33,521 nucleotides of DNA from Planctomycetota bacterium. Lineage in GTDB: Bacteria > Planctomycetota > Phycisphaerae > Sedimentisphaerales > Anaerobacaceae. Positions 22,516 to 32,059 of the stretch are shown here, piece by piece. The position numbers and the translations under genes are program-made. Where the stretch lies: the NCBI GenBank assembly GCA_023135865.1, contig JAGLSG010000088.1, forward strand, positions 1 to 33,521. Direction: 5' to 3'. The notes below the pieces were generated by a model. It searched no databases and was not told the origin of the DNA. It worked only from the letters and a program-made list of their open reading frames with translations. Positions within the stretch are counted from its first letter, which is position 1. Every line of letters starts with the position of its first letter.

Positions 22516-24279
22516 ATGAGTGTGGCAACAAAAACCAATAAACCAAAGCCAGGCGTAAAACTTGGTGTTCGCTTCGGCGAATGGCTTGTTAGCAAAAATG
22601 TGATGAGCACGGACAAGCTCAATGAAGCCCTGCGAGAACAAAGAACGAGTGGCGGCCGATTGGGAGAAGTTCTGCTGAGATTGGAAATACTCAGCCATAA
22701 AGATATTACAAATGCTCTTGCTGAATACCTCGGAATAGATTGCGTAAATCTTGAGGACACTTCCAAAATCAATATGGACGTAGCAAGAAGTATTCCAGAA
22801 GCAATCGCAAAACGGTTCTGCTTAATCGCAACCGGTGAAGCAGATGGTAAAATCATTGTGGCAATGGGCGACCCGCTAAATGTAGTTGCAATAGATACGA
22901 TAGCACTGAAATTGAAAAGACGTATCAAGCCGGTCATAAGTTCTATTCCGGAAATTCAGCACGCAACAGAAGTTGTCTATCACGGAAGCGACCTTGAAGA
23001 ACAAAAACTAAAAGACATCGTCGAACTCGATGCAAAAAACAGCAAAAGCGATGAAATAATAGAAAACCTTATGGAAACAGACATTAGCAAGGAAGCCGAT
23101 GCTAATGATGCTCCTGTAATTCAATTTGTAAATCTGCTGCTCAGCCAGGCCGTAAAATCAAAGGCCAGTGATATTCACATTGAGCCGCGAGAAAAAGTAA
23201 TGAGCATTCGAATGAGAACTGACGGTGTGCTCAGAAATATGGTGCCGCCGCATCCAAAAATGCAGGCAGCTGTAACTACAAGATTGAAAATCCTCTCGGA
23301 AATGGACATTGCGGAAAGAAGATTGCCGCAGGATGGAAGATTCAAAATAAAAGCGACAGGAAGAGATGTGGATGTGCGTGTCTCAACAATACCAACAATA
23401 TACGGTGAAAAAATCGTTATGCGATTGCTCGATAAAACAGCGGTCGACCACAATATTGAAAAGCTGGGATTTTCACCTGAAATGCTGAAAAAATTTAAAG
23501 CTGTTCTGACTCAGCCGCACGGAATTATAATTGTTACAGGGCCAACCGGAAGCGGTAAAAGTACTACGCTTTACTCTTCGCTGGCGTATCTGAACGACCC
23601 CAAAAAGAATATCACAACAGTTGAAGACCCTGTGGAATACCGGCTCGAAGGAGTTAATCAGGTACAGGTTAAGCCGGAAATCAAGCTGGATTTTGCAAGG
23701 TGCCTGAGGGCAATACTAAGGCAGGACCCGGATATTGTTTTAATCGGCGAAATCCGAGATAAAGAAACAATGGAAATCGCAATCAAGGCCTCGCTTACCG
23801 GCCATCTTGTGATGAGTACTTTCCACACAAACGATGCGCCAAGTGCAATCAGCCGATTGGTTTATATGGGACTGGAGCCGTATTTACTGGCTTCAACTTT
23901 GAATATGATAATTGCGCAGCGGCTCGTCAGAAAAATCTGCGATAAATGCAAAGAGCCGGTCGAACTTAATGATGAAGTTTTGAAGCATCTTCACATTGAC
24001 CCGGCTGAGGCGAAAGATAAAGTTTTCTATCACGGCAAGGGCTGTAATGCGTGCGGCGGAACCGGCTATAAAGGACGGCTGCCAATTTTTGAGGTCTTGA
24101 TGTTCGACAGGGACATTCGTGAAAAACTCGTCGCCGGGGCAAAAGAAGCAGAATTAAGGGCAGCTGCAAGAGCAAACGGATACGGCGGATTGCTCGAAAG
24201 CGGCGTGGAAAAATTGCTGGCCGGACTTACAACAGCTGAAGAAGTTCTGAATGTAACATTTGAAGAGGATGTAACGTAA
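22516..24279 (+). CDS. pilB: Type IV pilus assembly ATPase PilB (GspE family) with MshEN c-di-GMP-binding domain
   Basis: This 587-aa ATPase drives pilus extension at the inner-membrane platform. The N-terminal MshEN domain has two 24-residue motifs separated by exactly five residues: R19-FGEWL to Q42, then RTSGG, then R48-LGEVL to Y71. That is the layout known to bind c-di-GMP. Walker A is G342-PTGSGKST with K348, followed by the Asp box TTVEDPVEY, Walker B DIVLIGEIRD and the His box STFHTNDAPSA. A four-cysteine zinc site (CDKCKEP and CNACGGTGYKG) is typical of PilB/GspE and absent in retraction ATPases. GGGTGA lies shortly before ATG. It could instead be a type II secretion GspE, but the pilMNO operon nearby favours a pilus. 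Confidence 0.93.
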   Translation: MSVATKTNKPKPGVKLGVRFGEWLVSKNVMSTDKLNEALREQRTSGGRLGEVLLRLEILSHKDITNALAEYLGIDCVNLEDTSKINMDVARSIPEAIAKRFCLIATGEADGKIIVAMGDPLNVVAIDTIALKLKRRIKPVISSIPEIQHATEVVYHGSDLEEQKLKDIVELDAKNSKSDEIIENLMETDISKEADANDAPVIQFVNLLLSQAVKSKASDIHIEPREKVMSIRMRTDGVLRNMVPPHPKMQAAVTTRLKILSEMDIAERRLPQDGRFKIKATGRDVDVRVSTIPTIYGEKIVMRLLDKTAVDHNIEKLGFSPEMLKKFKAVLTQPHGIIIVTGPTGSGKSTTLYSSLAYLNDPKKNITTVEDPVEYRLEGVNQVQVKPEIKLDFARCLRAILRQDPDIVLIGEIRDKETMEIAIKASLTGHLVMSTFHTNDAPSAISRLVYMGLEPYLLASTLNMIIAQRLVRKICDKCKEPVELNDEVLKHLHIDPAEAKDKVFYHGKGCNACGGTGYKGRLPIFEVLMFDRDIREKLVAGAKEAELRAAARANGYGGLLESGVEKLLAGLTTAEEVLNVTFEEDVT

Positions 24280-24336
24280 AAAAAGTTAAAAAAAATAATT
24301 AAAATCAAATCACATAAAAAAAACATCATTCCAAAC

Positions 24337-24537
24337 TGTCTCAAATTTATCAAAAGTGTCTCATTTAATCGAAACTGTCTCATTTGTTAATGAGACAGTC
24401 TGTCTCATTTCGCAGGCGTTCTGAAAAATCGTAAACTCATTTTTGGCATAGCTTTATCAAATCTGTCTCAATAAAAGTGTATCACAAAAATTGAGACAAA
24501 CTGTCTCACTGTCTCATTAAGAACGCCAAATGAGACA
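24337..24537. promoter_or_regulatory. Array of ten TGTCTCA sites: candidate enhancer for the sigma-54 activator
   Basis: Exact copies on the plus strand start at 24337, 24357, 24376, 24401, 24464, 24502 and 24510. Inverse copies (TGAGACA) start at 24391, 24492 and 24531. Two pairs form the same 17-bp palindrome TGAGACA-N3-TGTCTCA (24391-24407 and 24492-24508). A wider 26-bp palindrome with 11-bp arms spans 24374-24399. Many centre-to-centre spacings are close to whole helical turns (20, 19, 10, 63, 10, 21). Nine of ten copies are preceded by C or G, giving (C/G)TGTC. GGCGTTCT (24415-24422) and its inverse AGAACGCC (24519-24526) further mirror the two halves. The array ends about 115 bp upstream of the predicted sigma-54 start. 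Confidence 0.85.
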
Positions 24538-24624
24538 GTTGTAAATCTTATAACGTAAAAAATAATCACTCCCAAGTCGTTTGTATTGCTGAAGTTACAA
24601 TCTTTTACTGCAATGTCCGATAAT

Positions 24625-24702: not shown

Positions 24703-24969
24703 ATGGTGAGTCATATTGGAAATGAATATATCTCGGAGGCAATGAAGATGGCTCAACGTATTATGCGTATGGCTAATTGCGGTGAACTGTTGACGAATAA
24801 CGATGAATGCGGAGTGCTCTTTGGAGTGCTGCGGGATTGTGCTTACAAAATCCGCAAACAGGCAATGCGAGATACTCAAATTCAAAAACAAAAAACAATA
24901 GCTGATGAAATCGAATATCTGTTGAGTGAGCAGTCCGAGATTCAAAAACCAAAATGCGAACAGTCGTAA
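24703..24969 (+). CDS. Small protein of unknown function (88 aa), first gene behind the sigma-54 promoter
   Basis: I do not recognise the family. ATG 24703 is chosen because AGGAG lies 7 bp upstream and because it is downstream of the predicted transcript start; the frame is open back to 24586 but that ATG precedes the promoter. The product starts MVSHIGNEYISEAMKMAQRI and is predicted to be mostly helical, with Met-rich and amphipathic segments. It has three cysteines in the ordered part (ANCGELL, DECGVLF, RDCAYK) and one near the C-terminus. There is no signal peptide, membrane helix or pilin motif. The charged C-terminal half (KQKTIADEIEYLLSEQSE) could form a coiled coil. It is followed at 16 bp by another small gene. 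Confidence 0.7.
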   Translation: MVSHIGNEYISEAMKMAQRIMRMANCGELLTNNDECGVLFGVLRDCAYKIRKQAMRDTQIQKQKTIADEIEYLLSEQSEIQKPKCEQS

Positions 24970-24985
24970 AGGAAGAGGCAATACT

Positions 24986-25183
24986 ATGACTCACAACATT
25001 AACATAGAAAATGAATACAATAATTATATCGCCAGTAAGTGGCAGAAACTTTCCAAAACAACACAACATGCCTTAAAAATGGAAAAAGACGGAGTAAGCC
25101 AGAACTACGTTAATGCAATATCTATGTGGACTATAAAATTTCTTCAGGAAAAATTAAATAATCTGGAAACAGAAACGAAATAA
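24986..25183 (+). CDS. Small protein of unknown function (65 aa), second gene behind the sigma-54 promoter
   Basis: I do not recognise the family. The start ATG 24986 has a strong GGAAGAGG ribosome site (24971-24978). The frame is also open upstream to 24926, inside the previous gene, but without a comparable site. The product starts MTHNINIENEYNNYIASKWQ and ends KFLQEKLNNLETETK. It is hydrophilic and likely helical, with no Cys, signal peptide or membrane helix. Its size and spacing suggest co-expression with the 88-aa gene. The stop is directly followed by the purine-rich tract. Confidence 0.65.
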   Translation: MTHNINIENEYNNYIASKWQKLSKTTQHALKMEKDGVSQNYVNAISMWTIKFLQEKLNNLETETK

Positions 25184-25195
25184 AAACCGACCAAT

Positions 25196-25480
25196 GCAGG
25201 ATAGAGCGAGGAGTTGAGAGAGAAAGAGGCGGGAGCTGAGAGAGAGTGAGATGTCGGAGGAGAGGGAGAGGAAAGAGTAGGGAGAAAGTGGAGAGGTGAG
25301 AGTAGAGAGAGTGTCGAAGCAGAGGCAGGGTGAGTGAGTTGGAGAGAAAAGGGAAAGAGGCAGGGAGAGTAGAGAGCAGGAGAGTTGGTCGAGAGAGAGT
25401 TCTATAGGAAGAGGATTTTTAGTAAATAGTAACTGGTTTCAAAGTTAGAAATTGGCTTAATGGAGGATAGAGAGAGGATG
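25196..25480 (+). ncRNA. Purine-rich, GGA-repeat tract, candidate non-coding RNA or mRNA 3' region
   Basis: From 25201 to 25380 only 27 of 180 bases on the plus strand are pyrimidines by my count. The tract is low-complexity GAGAG/GGAGAG/AGGGAG with no open frame of note on either strand. Between 25199 and 25545 I count about 22 GGA triplets, roughly four times chance. On the RNA these resemble ribosome-site (AGGAGG) or CsrA-site (GGA) sequence. The region lies directly after the two small genes and should be on the sigma-54 transcript. It could also be a simple-sequence expansion without function, or form triplex DNA. Confidence 0.5.
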
Positions 25481-25485
25481 ATGAA

Positions 25486-25638
25486 TTTGGCCCAGTCGAT
25501 TTGGGCCAAAAAAACAGGGCTAATTCAACGGAGGAGAGGAGGAGGTTGAGTTAGCCCCGACAATTGTTAGCGTAACAAGCACACCTGTACCCAAAATTAC
25601 GCTAATAACAAAAAGCCCCCCAGGACATTTTTGTTATT
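25486..25638 (+). ncRNA. Structured RNA element: four hairpins, one with a GGAGGAGAGGAGGAG loop
   Basis: Hairpin 1 has a perfect 9-bp stem (25486-25494 with 25502-25510). Hairpin 2 has a 13-bp stem (25517-25529 with 25545-25557), including one U-G pair, and a 15-nt loop GGAGGAGAGGAGGAG (25530-25544). Hairpin 3 has a 12-bp stem (25564-25575 with 25597-25608), again with one G-U pair. Hairpin 4 has a perfect 11-bp stem (25604-25614 with 25628-25638) and a GCCCCCCAGGACA loop; its left arm overlaps the right arm of hairpin 3, so 3 and 4 exclude each other. Both wobble pairs hold only in a plus-strand RNA; on the other strand they become A-C or C-A mismatches. That indicates transcription from the sigma-54 promoter side. 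No known RNA family is recognised. Confidence 0.6.
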
Positions 25639-25806
25639 CAAATTTACTACTTACCAGCAGTTTTCCTTTCAAAAATTATTCGGCAATTCAGCTCTTTTGC
25701 AAAACTGACTATATACAGTTTAAGCTATAAACCAGCAAAAGCCAATTACGGTCATTACGTGTTTATTGAAGTAAAACAAAATTGCCCCAGGACACACCAA
25801 TTCGGG
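25639..25806. other. AT-rich spacer without a recognised feature
   Basis: No gene or strong motif is visible. A weak 6-bp stem (AAACTG/CAGTTT) lies around 25702-25721, and the string CCCAGGACA seen in the loop of hairpin 4 recurs near 25786. Confidence 0.4.
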
Positions 25807-25885
25807 GTCATTGCGAGCGAAGCGAAGCAATCTCAAAAACTCAAAAATCGAGATTGCCACGGCAGAGAAGCTGCCTCGCAATGAC
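25807..25885. repeat. REP-like palindromic element (GTCATTGCGAG type)
   Basis: It starts GTCATTGCGAG and ends with the inverse CTCGCAATGAC. Inside, GCAATCTC and GAGATTGC pair across an A-rich loop. A related half-element lies at 14460-14496. Elements with these ends are common between genes in many environmental bacteria. It sits between the convergent small-gene unit and the secretin operon. Confidence 0.75.
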
Positions 25886-25925
25886 AATGGTTGAGGTGCT
25901 ATTCTCTACAGAATAATTACAAATA

Positions 25926-26001: not shown

Positions 26002-27672
26002 TTATTTATTTTCCTCGGAAACATCACCAAAACTTACTTTTGACGTTTTGGCTTTTGGGATATTGGTTCTTTTAAGTGCTTCAATATCGTCCGGTGAAAG
26101 AGTCGGCTCTATAACAATTCGCGGAGTTATGAATATAAGCAATTCGTTGGTTTTCACCGATTCGCTCGTATCTGTGAACAGTCCTCCGAGCAAGGGCAAA
26201 TCGCCAAGTAAAGGCATTTTGCGAATGTCCTGCGTGATTTCCCTTTTGCGAAGTCCGCCGAGAACTACGGTCTGATTGTTCCTCACCAACGCTTTTGTGT
26301 CAAGCATTCGGGTACTTACGGTGGGAACAAGCAGGGCGCCTGTCGAGTCTCTCTGCTGGTCTTCAACAATGCCGAATTCAGGAATAATGTGTAATCTGAG
26401 CATTCCGTCTCTTGTAATGTGGGGTGTAACCTGAAGCTGTACACCGACATCCTTGAACTGAGTTGAAGTCATACTGCCGCCATCAGATGTTGCACTTTGC
26501 TCCTTGTATGGAATTTCGCGTACAATCTTAAATTGAGCTGTTTCATTGTCGAGTACGAGTATGCTCGGATTTGCGAGAAGGGTGGCTCCTACCTGTTTGT
26601 GAAGCATACTCAGAGCTATATCTATATCGACCATATCATTCATCAGACCAAAACGTATAGAGCCGCCGGTTTCACGGTCGAATCCGCCGCTTACAAATGG
26701 TCTGCTTCGATAACTTGTTGATTCTGTTGTTGTTTCCTGTGTTTTGACAATGCCTCTGCCGTCCGATGCCGGTGTTTCGGTTCTAACCGTTCCAGTACCA
26801 GTCGTTGCGGGTGATTGAGTTGTAACCGTTTCTGTAATTACTGGCGCTGTGGCATCGGGGTCGTCACTTTCGGTTATGGTGGTTGTGTAAGTATCAGTAG
26901 CTGATGTATCGGTTGTGGTGGTTGTGTAAGTATCAGTAGCAGGCGTATGAGTATCCGTTATCGTTTCTTTGTCTGTTTTTGTGATGGTGTCAATGGCTGT
27001 ATTGCGGCCGGCATCCCAATCTACTATAACATCGAAACTTTCTGTGCTGGTTATGTCATAGATTCTAACCTCAACCATAATCTGCGGTGTGATGCGGTCG
27101 ATTTCCTCAATGAAAGTATCAATCGCCTTGATTTTGCTCTCAGTGTCAGTAACGATTATGTTACTCGTGCCGGGACTGGAAGACAGTGAGCCGCGATTGG
27201 ATATGAATTTTTCCAACGACTTTTCGACTTCATCAACGTTTGCATAAATGATGCGGTATATCCTATTGACAAGCTTTTCAGATTCGTCACTGATTTCTGC
27301 TGAAGGAGCTATTCTTATCATATTTTTATCGAGAATATAGCCAAAATCGTGCGCTCTAAGAATGTTGTTAAGTGCCTCCTCGAGAGGAATCTCCGTTAGC
27401 GTAGCGGTCACATTTCCGAATACTTTGGGACTCTTGACAATATCAACATCGGCTTGCTCGGCCATTATTCGCAGTACGTCTTCGATTGCCGTATCCCTGA
27501 AATCAACGCTGATTTTTTTCTGCATCCGCTGCTCAAGCGATGTTAAGACCTCCTTGTTTACAGAATTCGGGTCATTATTTTCGGCGTCGGTTGCTGCCGG
27601 CGTTGCGCAGATGAATGTCACAAGCACTAACAGCCATATTCCTTTTCTTGTTTTTTTTATAAAACCGCTCAT
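26002..27672 (-). CDS. pilQ: Outer-membrane secretin (PilQ/GspD family) with Thr-rich repeat insertion
   Basis: Forms the outer-membrane channel for the pilus. I choose ATG 27672 because AGGAAGGA lies 7 bp upstream; the ATG at 27699 has no ribosome site. The 556-aa product has a signal peptide to about residue 30 (ending TPAATDA). An STN/N-domain follows (ISVDFRDTAIEDVLRIMAEQ, then LTEIPLEEALNNIL), then a second N-domain with SSPGTSNIIVTDTESKIKAI. The secretin domain is at the C-terminal half (QVTPHITRDGMLRL, VLGGLRKREI, PLLGDLPLLGGLF, LLIFITPRIV). Between the first secretin strand and GGSIRFGL, about residues 220-325 are Thr-rich, with a 13-residue unit repeated (TDTYTTTTTDTSA, TDTYTTTITESDD). 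It could be a type II secretion GspD, but PilM/N/O upstream favour PilQ. Confidence 0.9.
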   Translation of the reverse strand: MSGFIKKTRKGIWLLVLVTFICATPAATDAENNDPNSVNKEVLTSLEQRMQKKISVDFRDTAIEDVLRIMAEQADVDIVKSPKVFGNVTATLTEIPLEEALNNILRAHDFGYILDKNMIRIAPSAEISDESEKLVNRIYRIIYANVDEVEKSLEKFISNRGSLSSSPGTSNIIVTDTESKIKAIDTFIEEIDRITPQIMVEVRIYDITSTESFDVIVDWDAGRNTAIDTITKTDKETITDTHTPATDTYTTTTTDTSATDTYTTTITESDDPDATAPVITETVTTQSPATTGTGTVRTETPASDGRGIVKTQETTTESTSYRSRPFVSGGFDRETGGSIRFGLMNDMVDIDIALSMLHKQVGATLLANPSILVLDNETAQFKIVREIPYKEQSATSDGGSMTSTQFKDVGVQLQVTPHITRDGMLRLHIIPEFGIVEDQQRDSTGALLVPTVSTRMLDTKALVRNNQTVVLGGLRKREITQDIRKMPLLGDLPLLGGLFTDTSESVKTNELLIFITPRIVIEPTLSPDDIEALKRTNIPKAKTSKVSFGDVSEENK

Positions 27673-27732
27673 AACAGTTTCCTTCCTAATTGTGTTCATT
27701 GTTCATTAACAGTTTTTTTATCTATGAACTAA

Positions 27733-30776: not shown

Positions 30777-31835
30777 TTAGATACTCCTCATAGCAAGTCC
30801 GGCTGCGACCGCGAGAGCAGGCCCATTTTTAGTCACAATTTCCGGAAGGTCTATTTGTTGTGCTGATTCATCGTACGCCATTTCATCAAAGGGATTCCAC
30901 AGCACAGCTGCCGTAGGAAGCTGCTCATTGAGTATTTCAACGAAACCTTCGACAAGTGCAAAGCCGCCGCAAACAAATATTTTATCAATAACAGCCGACT
31001 GCTCCTGAGCTGTGTAGTATCTTAGAGTTTCAGTAACATCAACGACGAGCTTTCGGCAGGCCTCTTCGAGCAATTTCGGATTCGGTGCTTTGTGCCTGAT
31101 GTCCAGTTTTTCGTAGCCACTTTCTGTTACGGCGTATTCGCCGTGCTTGGCGATTTCCTTTATAATATCTCTTCCGGCGTACGACAAGTCGCGAACGAAA
31201 GGAAGACCATTGTCACCCATAATCACCAGGTTCGTAAAAGAATTTCCAACATTCAAAATAGCTGTCGTTTGTCCCTGCTGGAATTTATTATGTTCACCGA
31301 AATAGTTTAAAAGAGCCAATCCGTCAACGTCCATCATAACGGTGTTAAGCGAAGTGTTTTTAACGAGATGTGTTTTTTTGTTTATAATTTTATTTGTAGC
31401 TGCAACCATAACACCACGAATGTTATTTTTGTCATTGCTTGGCACCACCTGATAATCAACAACACCTTCATCAACATTGAAAGGGCAGACCTGCTTGGCT
31501 TCCATTAGAGCTGCTCCCGCTATTTCATCGTTCGCGAGAGATGGAAACTTGAAACGACGAACCGCAACTTCCGGCCCACAAATTCCGCAAACCGCAAACG
31601 GCGTTTGAATTCCAGTAATAAGGAGAGAATCACGAATAGCTTTGGCTGTGTTTATTTCCTGATGAGTTTTTCCATCCTCATCTGCTTCAATGATATCAAC
31701 AATACCAGCGGCGTTGACAGTCCAGTGCGAATTATTTTTGCTAAGCTGGACCATCTTTACCGAAGACGTACCAATGTCGAGGCCAAAGACTTCATCGTGG
31801 TCGATTTGAAGCAATTTTTTCAAATTAAAATCCAT
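30777..31835 (-). CDS. pilM: Type IV pilus assembly protein PilM (actin-like ATPase)
   Basis: A cytoplasmic actin-like protein that binds the PilN tail and links the alignment complex to the pilus motor. ATG 31835 is preferred and gives 352 aa beginning MDFNLKKLLQIDHDEVFGLD, close to the usual PilM start; the longer frame to 31889 adds 18 unconserved residues. Nucleotide-binding motifs: GLDIGTSSVKMVQL (phosphate 1), LNVGNSFTNLVIM (phosphate 2, with the adjoining FVRDLSYAGRDI) and KIFVCGGFALVEGF (adenosine). The leader is 290 bp long and separates it from the prepilin-like genes, so a promoter probably lies there, though I see no strong one. Confidence 0.92.
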   Translation of the reverse strand: MDFNLKKLLQIDHDEVFGLDIGTSSVKMVQLSKNNSHWTVNAAGIVDIIEADEDGKTHQEINTAKAIRDSLLITGIQTPFAVCGICGPEVAVRRFKFPSLANDEIAGAALMEAKQVCPFNVDEGVVDYQVVPSNDKNNIRGVMVAATNKIINKKTHLVKNTSLNTVMMDVDGLALLNYFGEHNKFQQGQTTAILNVGNSFTNLVIMGDNGLPFVRDLSYAGRDIIKEIAKHGEYAVTESGYEKLDIRHKAPNPKLLEEACRKLVVDVTETLRYYTAQEQSAVIDKIFVCGGFALVEGFVEILNEQLPTAAVLWNPFDEMAYDESAQQIDLPEIVTKNGPALAVAAGLAMRSI

Positions 31836-32059
31836 TTTGTATCTCACATACACAATAGTGTTCTCGTTCACACATACCTCTTGCGGCATCTATGCGTATG
31901 TCGGCTTAAAAAAGGAGATGTTTAATCTTAAAATTATGATGTGCAGCAGCGAAATAGTGGTTGTGTGCTTTTATTGCATATAGCCCTATAAAAAACAGGC
32001 GACTGATTATTTAAGCGGCTTTTTTGAAACAGGAATAATTTATTGCTGGAAAAAATAGA

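Follow-up and report, generated by a model that had tools for sequence, protein, structure and literature searches.

Genomic context of the hairpin

The window, by which we mean the whole stretch of 33,521 nucleotides analysed here, contains a pilB/gspE-like gene (22516-24279, plus strand), a secretin gene of the pilQ/gspD type (26002-27699, minus strand) and a pilM-like gene (30777-31889). The hairpin under study lies at 25517-25557, between the convergent pilB and pilQ genes, in an interval that also holds two small ORFs, a GA-rich tract and several other hairpins. The small ORFs, one of 88 aa (24703-24969) followed by one of 65 aa (24986-25183), are both on the plus strand and are matched in 7 and 4, respectively, of the 89 genomes of the family, their own included; in some relatives their neighbours are presumably STAS, MsrA or sigma-54 regulator genes. 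Upstream of them, positions 24330-24540 contain five copies of a TGTCTCA-containing repeat together with nested inverted repeats, which are kept in the sister species (G048) and are possible regulator sites. The GA-rich tract (25195-25480, plus strand) reaches 87% purine per 100 nt, and similar tracts occur in two other family genomes (L004, 1421-1600, plus strand; L005, 1406-1605 in reverse-complement coordinates).

On the minus strand, pilQ is directly followed by a strong intrinsic terminator of its own (25965-25931), and the hairpin studied here is thus not needed for ending pilQ. Between the two, positions 25804-25888 hold a dispersed repeat of the GTCATTGCGAGCGAAGCGAAGCAATC type, which recurs many times in this genome and in G048; another repeated palindrome of these two genomes, GGTTAGCCCTGCCATCACTATGGCAGGG and its variants, is often followed by T-rich sequence (L067, L070, L072, L077, L079). 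Nearer to the hairpin are a TATAGT hexamer, read from the sequence at 25713-25708 (minus strand), and a weak sigma-70-like promoter match (25675-25703, minus strand, 9/12). Six promoter-like matches were found where 4.3 are expected by chance, and this candidate promoter does not rise above chance level. Two further hairpins (25564-25608 and 25604-25638) separate this match from the studied one, and the CU-loop motif described below is absent from both.

Structure of the hairpin

Read on the plus strand, positions 25517-25557 are GGGCTAATTCAAC-GGAGGAGAGGAGGAG-GTTGAGTTAGCCC, a stem of 13 pairs, one of them U-G, closed by a 15-nt loop, exactly as a preliminary description of this DNA had it. The loop (25530-25544) is GGAGGAGAGGAGGAG on the plus strand, with AGGAGG twice within it or at its edge, and the CU-rich CUCCUCCUCUCCUCC on the minus strand. 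Both strands of 25510-25565 are predicted to fold far better than their shuffles, at -20.4 kcal/mol on the plus strand (shuffle mean -8.6, z -5.3) and -18.4 kcal/mol on the minus strand (shuffle mean -7.3, z -5.3). As in an intrinsic terminator, the GC-rich stem (about -18 kcal/mol on the minus strand) is followed on that strand by TG and then by a T7 tract (25508-25514, running from 25514 to 25508). The claim that a loop made only of such motifs is unlikely by chance was borne out: when the whole window was dinucleotide-shuffled 20 times, none of the 70 resulting stems of at least 13 bp (overlapping stems counted separately) carried two GGAG motifs in its loop, so that the composition of the window alone would not yield this loop. 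The hairpin sits just 3' of the GA-rich tract, and purine-rich sequence is thus common locally.

A second hairpin upstream of pilT

A BLAST search of 25185-25620 against its own genome returned one other weak match, of 18 nt (G000:C45, E 0.05). The matched segment is the loop of a hairpin, GGGGCTAACCGA-CGGAGGAGAGGGAGAGGAGA-TCGGACTAGCCCC, whose stem core is the same as that of the window hairpin and which precedes, by about 110 nt, a minus-strand gene that we take, from its sequence, to be pilT. In the window, the exact 18-nt copy of this loop falls within the GA-rich tract, at 25255-25272. The pilT-locus hairpin is identical at 45 of 45 positions in the sister species, whereas the adjoining intergenic stretches are identical at 86 of 108 and 55 of 63. 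Upstream of it is a 70-aa ORF, in which differences between the species are spread evenly over the three codon positions (6/6/7), unlike those of pilT itself, which fall mainly on third positions (23/14/73); judged by this pattern of substitution, the region 5' of the hairpin is probably non-coding.

A covariance model built on the pilT-locus hairpin alone (R1) and run against 45.6 kb recovered the hairpin of the window with a score of 34.2 bits (E 8.9e-8). Between the two stems, 3 of 12 pairs are doubly compensated, none is changed on one side only and one is broken. As only two distinct sequences enter, the shuffle control for this covariation is weak (62/500); slid structures, however, gave no doubly changed pairs. 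The palindrome GGGCTA..TAGCCC occurs only three times in this genome, and two of these occurrences are the window and pilT-locus hairpins. The window loop has CGGAGGAGAGG in common with the loops at G000:C45 and G048:C322; taken alone, an 11-nt match from loop to loop is reached by 4% of loops with this composition. The preliminary description had proposed stem covariation and loop conservation as checks. Both are found in part, the former as the three compensated pairs between two loci of one genome and the latter as identity between two species at the pilT locus, but the window copy has no ortholog to compare, because the sister species' contig ends before the locus. A possible degenerate third copy, weak at 14.4 bits (E 0.068), lies at 25452-25494 on the plus strand.

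Related hairpins in the order

A second covariance model (R2), trained on the window and pilT-locus hairpins, was searched against 161 genomes of the order and gave matches at E<=0.1 in 14 of them, training loci included. Beyond the training loci these were G009 (1.7e-6), G023 (0.007), G040 (0.009), G035 (0.065) and eight genomes of genus g40 (0.0125-0.026). A search of this size should yield about 16 matches at E<=0.1 by chance, so that only G009 is significant by score; the matches in G023, G040, g40 and G035 are not significant on score alone, and G010 and G011, of the same genus as G009, gave no R2 match. In a control run of R2 on 348 kb from 100 other loci, from which loci known to hold the hairpin were excluded, two matches arose by chance, at 17.4 and 11.1 bits.

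On the CU-rich strand, the stem is directly followed by a U-tract in most hairpins of the family, a feature absent from the model. Counted over the first 8 nt after the stem, the T residues on the CU and GGA strands number 7 and 3 in the window, 4/4 and 5/4 at the pilT locus of the two species (L003 and L010), 7/5 in L167, 7/2 in L168, 6/2 in L169, 7/4 in L170 (g40) and 6/2 in L178. The stem also shows covariation over seven distinct rows, in which 54 of the 56 cells of the outer eight pairs are paired, against a mean of 45 and a maximum of 52 in 2000 shuffles, a figure favoured by the alignment having been fitted to the structure. These are seven of 11 rows, after removal of three duplicates and of the minus-strand row for the window; a MAFFT alignment was discarded, as its loops were out of register.

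In pattern searches of the 89 family genomes the matches were mostly chance, no more numerous than in a reversed control, except in g1 and g6. A pattern scan of genome contigs returned six stretches, namely the G048 record, two matching the g6 terminator and three from unrelated organisms, which we took as chance. The g6 terminator (L083, 1497-1555; L082, 1440-1520) is built of tandem units, two or three in number, whose loops are CGGAGGAGG. On these comparisons of sequence and predicted structure, we conclude that the window hairpin is real and is a member of a small, previously unlisted hairpin family in this planctomycete group.

Genus g40 provides a compact arrangement. Seven of its eight matches are one identical 49-nt hairpin followed by TTTTT, found in seven of the nine g40 genomes listed, and the eighth (G080) is a partial match of different sequence. 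Upstream of the hairpin, CTTG and TATAGT are invariant and stand at promoter spacing, from which an RNA of about 40 nt would precede the hairpin. Mean pairwise identity is 1.0 in the core versus about 0.3-0.5 in the far flank. A divergent neighbour of 295 aa, presumably cysM from its sequence, was found at six of the seven loci, the other five being 79-92% identical to the first; the gene on the opposite side is convergent at six of seven loci. The g40 unit, whose hairpin has no upstream gene on its own strand, has the appearance of an independent small RNA gene read from the CU strand. A weak score, the CU loop and the tail hint at its kinship with the window hairpin.

The strand and a candidate function

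The preliminary description read the hairpin on the plus strand, which was probably the wrong one: we prefer the minus strand because of the tails, the conserved promoter of g40 and the way in which the neighbouring hairpins fold. The stretch 25500-25668 is predicted to fold at -55.5 kcal/mol on the minus strand (z -4.0, none of 200 shuffles as good) and at -38.8 kcal/mol on the plus strand (z -1.4, 17 of 200 shuffles). It folds better on the minus strand because the two neighbouring hairpins pair more there, with 19 pairs versus 12 at 25564-25608 and -13.0 versus -8.2 kcal/mol at 25604-25638. Against the minus-strand reading, the energetics of the family hairpins are mixed: the fold is slightly better on the GGA strand for the window hairpin, L169 and L178, and better on the CU strand for L003, L010, L167, L168 and L170/L172. 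Also against it, the g6 relative L083 has GGAGG on the strand with the T6 tail. The earlier idea of a role for Shine-Dalgarno complementarity in the loop survives with the strand exchanged, the relevant sequence being the anti-Shine-Dalgarno CUCCUCCUCUCCUCC of the minus-strand loop and not GGAGG.

We put at roughly 0.5 the probability that the hairpin is the terminator of a minus-strand small RNA with an anti-Shine-Dalgarno loop, acting like LhrC of Listeria. The RNA would probably run from about 25700 to 25505 and end 3' in this hairpin, whose single-stranded loop CUCCUCCUCUCCUCC, complementary to Shine-Dalgarno sequences, would pair with the ribosome-binding sites of mRNAs and so repress their translation. 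As in small RNAs that bind Shine-Dalgarno sequences, an unpaired CU-rich motif of this complementarity is seen in the loop sequence, the predicted folds and the predicted duplexes. When the loop was paired in silico with 24 start regions of the window, 5 gave duplexes better than 95% of random 30-mers. By far the best predicted target is the ribosome-binding site of the 88-aa ORF at 24703 (-20.8 kcal/mol; 1% of random 30-mers reach -13.6), which is unchanged in G048. The small RNA reading is favoured by the pair of hairpins within one genus, the stem covariation, the loop conservation in the sister species, the U-tracts on the CU strand and the promoter-terminator unit of g40. An own promoter and terminator are both conserved in g40; the window has the terminator tail, with a promoter at chance level. 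Transcription at the window locus, the 5' end of the RNA, the pairing with targets and a function common to the family are inferred.

The main alternative is that this is an ordinary intrinsic terminator whose loop does nothing by itself and is alike between loci by descent or duplication, which we consider unlikely but deserving of serious weight. The T7 tail and the position between convergent pilB and pilQ are what such a terminator would have. Several relatives also occupy usual terminator sites: L169 follows a tRNA, L178 lies between convergent genes, and in genus g6 a similar hairpin terminates a gene, presumably PEP-CTERM-like, which stands opposite what we take to be a tRNA gene. However, pilQ is already terminated at 25965-25931, the pilT-locus loop is fully kept while its flanks diverge and the stems change by compensation, and in g40 the promoter is conserved and the hairpin's own strand lacks an upstream gene. 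Moreover, a loop of 15-30 nt is unusually long for an intrinsic terminator.

A plus-strand RNA that binds and titrates CsrA through its GGA-rich loop and the GA-rich tract was one of the readings offered previously, and we find it improbable. A csrA gene is present in the genome (G000:C1:23352-23507, E 6.9e-26), 22 GGA motifs occur in 25185-25560, and the window hairpin, with its plus-strand U-G pair, folds better on that strand. The CsrA consensus is ANGGA, however, and known CsrA sites have short loops. Only 6 of the motifs in 25185-25560 are ANGGA, about one of them reaches into the loop, which is not short, and the U-tracts and the g40 promoter are on the opposite strand. The GA tract is moreover unstructured (z -0.1), so that it forms no array of short GGA stem-loops.

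A palindrome or repeat acting at the DNA level, as a protein site or a REP-like element, with no RNA function, appears highly unlikely: the element is palindromic, intergenic and present at two places in one genome, and its strand energetics are mixed, but the pattern finds only two such copies, and neither the asymmetric U-tracts nor the long conserved loop would be expected. By eye, an integron attC, a dif site and KOPS were rejected, the stem being fully paired, the spacing wrong and no KOPS octamer noticed. It is most improbable that the plus-strand loop pairs, as had also been suggested, with the 3' end of 16S rRNA, so as to sequester 30S subunits or serve as a standby site, since its two AGGAGG motifs are outweighed by the U-tracts and the g40 promoter on the other strand and no plus-strand ORF of at least 80 aa starts close downstream of the hairpin.

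Returning to the minus-strand small RNA, a plus-strand transcript of the GA tract would complement the CU loops, because 25255-25272 copies the pilT-locus loop, and we speculate that the tract, if transcribed, serves as a sponge for them. One to 11 of 5000 Markov copies of the tract reach the 18-nt match, depending on the order of the model (0.0002, 0.0012, 0.0022); because they do so and because the match was picked as the best in the genome (E 0.05), it is only suggestive. A broader scheme, in which a clade-wide family of planctomycete anti-Shine-Dalgarno small RNAs has siblings beside type IV pilus genes, and in which the GA-rich plus transcript of the window is a built-in sponge with an 18-nt complement of the sibling loop, starting from the small gene whose ribosome-binding site pairs best among the starts tested, seems doubtful, and we would not expect it to hold in full.

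Comparison with known systems

If the small RNA reading is true, Planctomycetota have a small RNA family that Rfam 15 lacks, whose pairing loop is defined and of which two copies adjoin pilus genes (pilB/pilQ and pilT); g40 would be a compact, directly testable unit of promoter, leader of about 40 nt and terminator loop, and the GGAGG-loop hairpin may be the antisense image of an anti-Shine-Dalgarno loop. The window has no match to Rfam 15 at gathering score. At E<=1 its intergenic region gave only one implausible miRNA, in a release that may or may not include alpha-r14, and six related loci gave only tRNAs and two sub-threshold leaders, none credible. The element is not described in those parts of the literature on anti-Shine-Dalgarno small RNAs, cuckoo/CcsR RNAs, small RNAs with C-rich motifs and Planctomycetes small RNAs and CsrA that our searches covered.

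The family shares with intrinsic terminators the GC-rich stem and minus-strand U-tract, and differs from them in its long conserved CU loop and in the free-standing unit of g40. CsrA sponges of the CsrB/RsmZ type are arrays of short GGA hairpins; the plus strand of the window resembles them in its loop-exposed GGA and the presence of csrA, whereas such an array is missing. The NfeR1, alpha-r14 and cuckoo RNAs of Alphaproteobacteria likewise present an unpaired anti-Shine-Dalgarno motif, CCUCCUCCC, on stems that are variable, and covering of the ribosome-binding site by these loops has been proposed for NfeR1/alpha-r14 (PMC10746234). Alpha-r14 is characterized there by three hairpins, each with an identical CCUCCUCCC, whereas the window locus has one CU-loop hairpin, and the window element is not a member of that family. 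In its features, and across different phyla, the element resembles LhrC1-5 of Listeria monocytogenes. These multicopy small RNAs bind the Shine-Dalgarno region through CU-rich motifs, of which the terminator loop holds one, and have been shown to repress translation by covering the ribosome-binding site (PMC4132741). LhrC RNAs have three CU-rich motifs in 111-114 nt and exist as near-identical copies (PMC4132741), whereas the planctomycete element has one long conserved CU loop on stems whose sequences differ. By analogy, we infer that its mode of action would be like that of the known CU-rich small RNAs that bind Shine-Dalgarno sequences.
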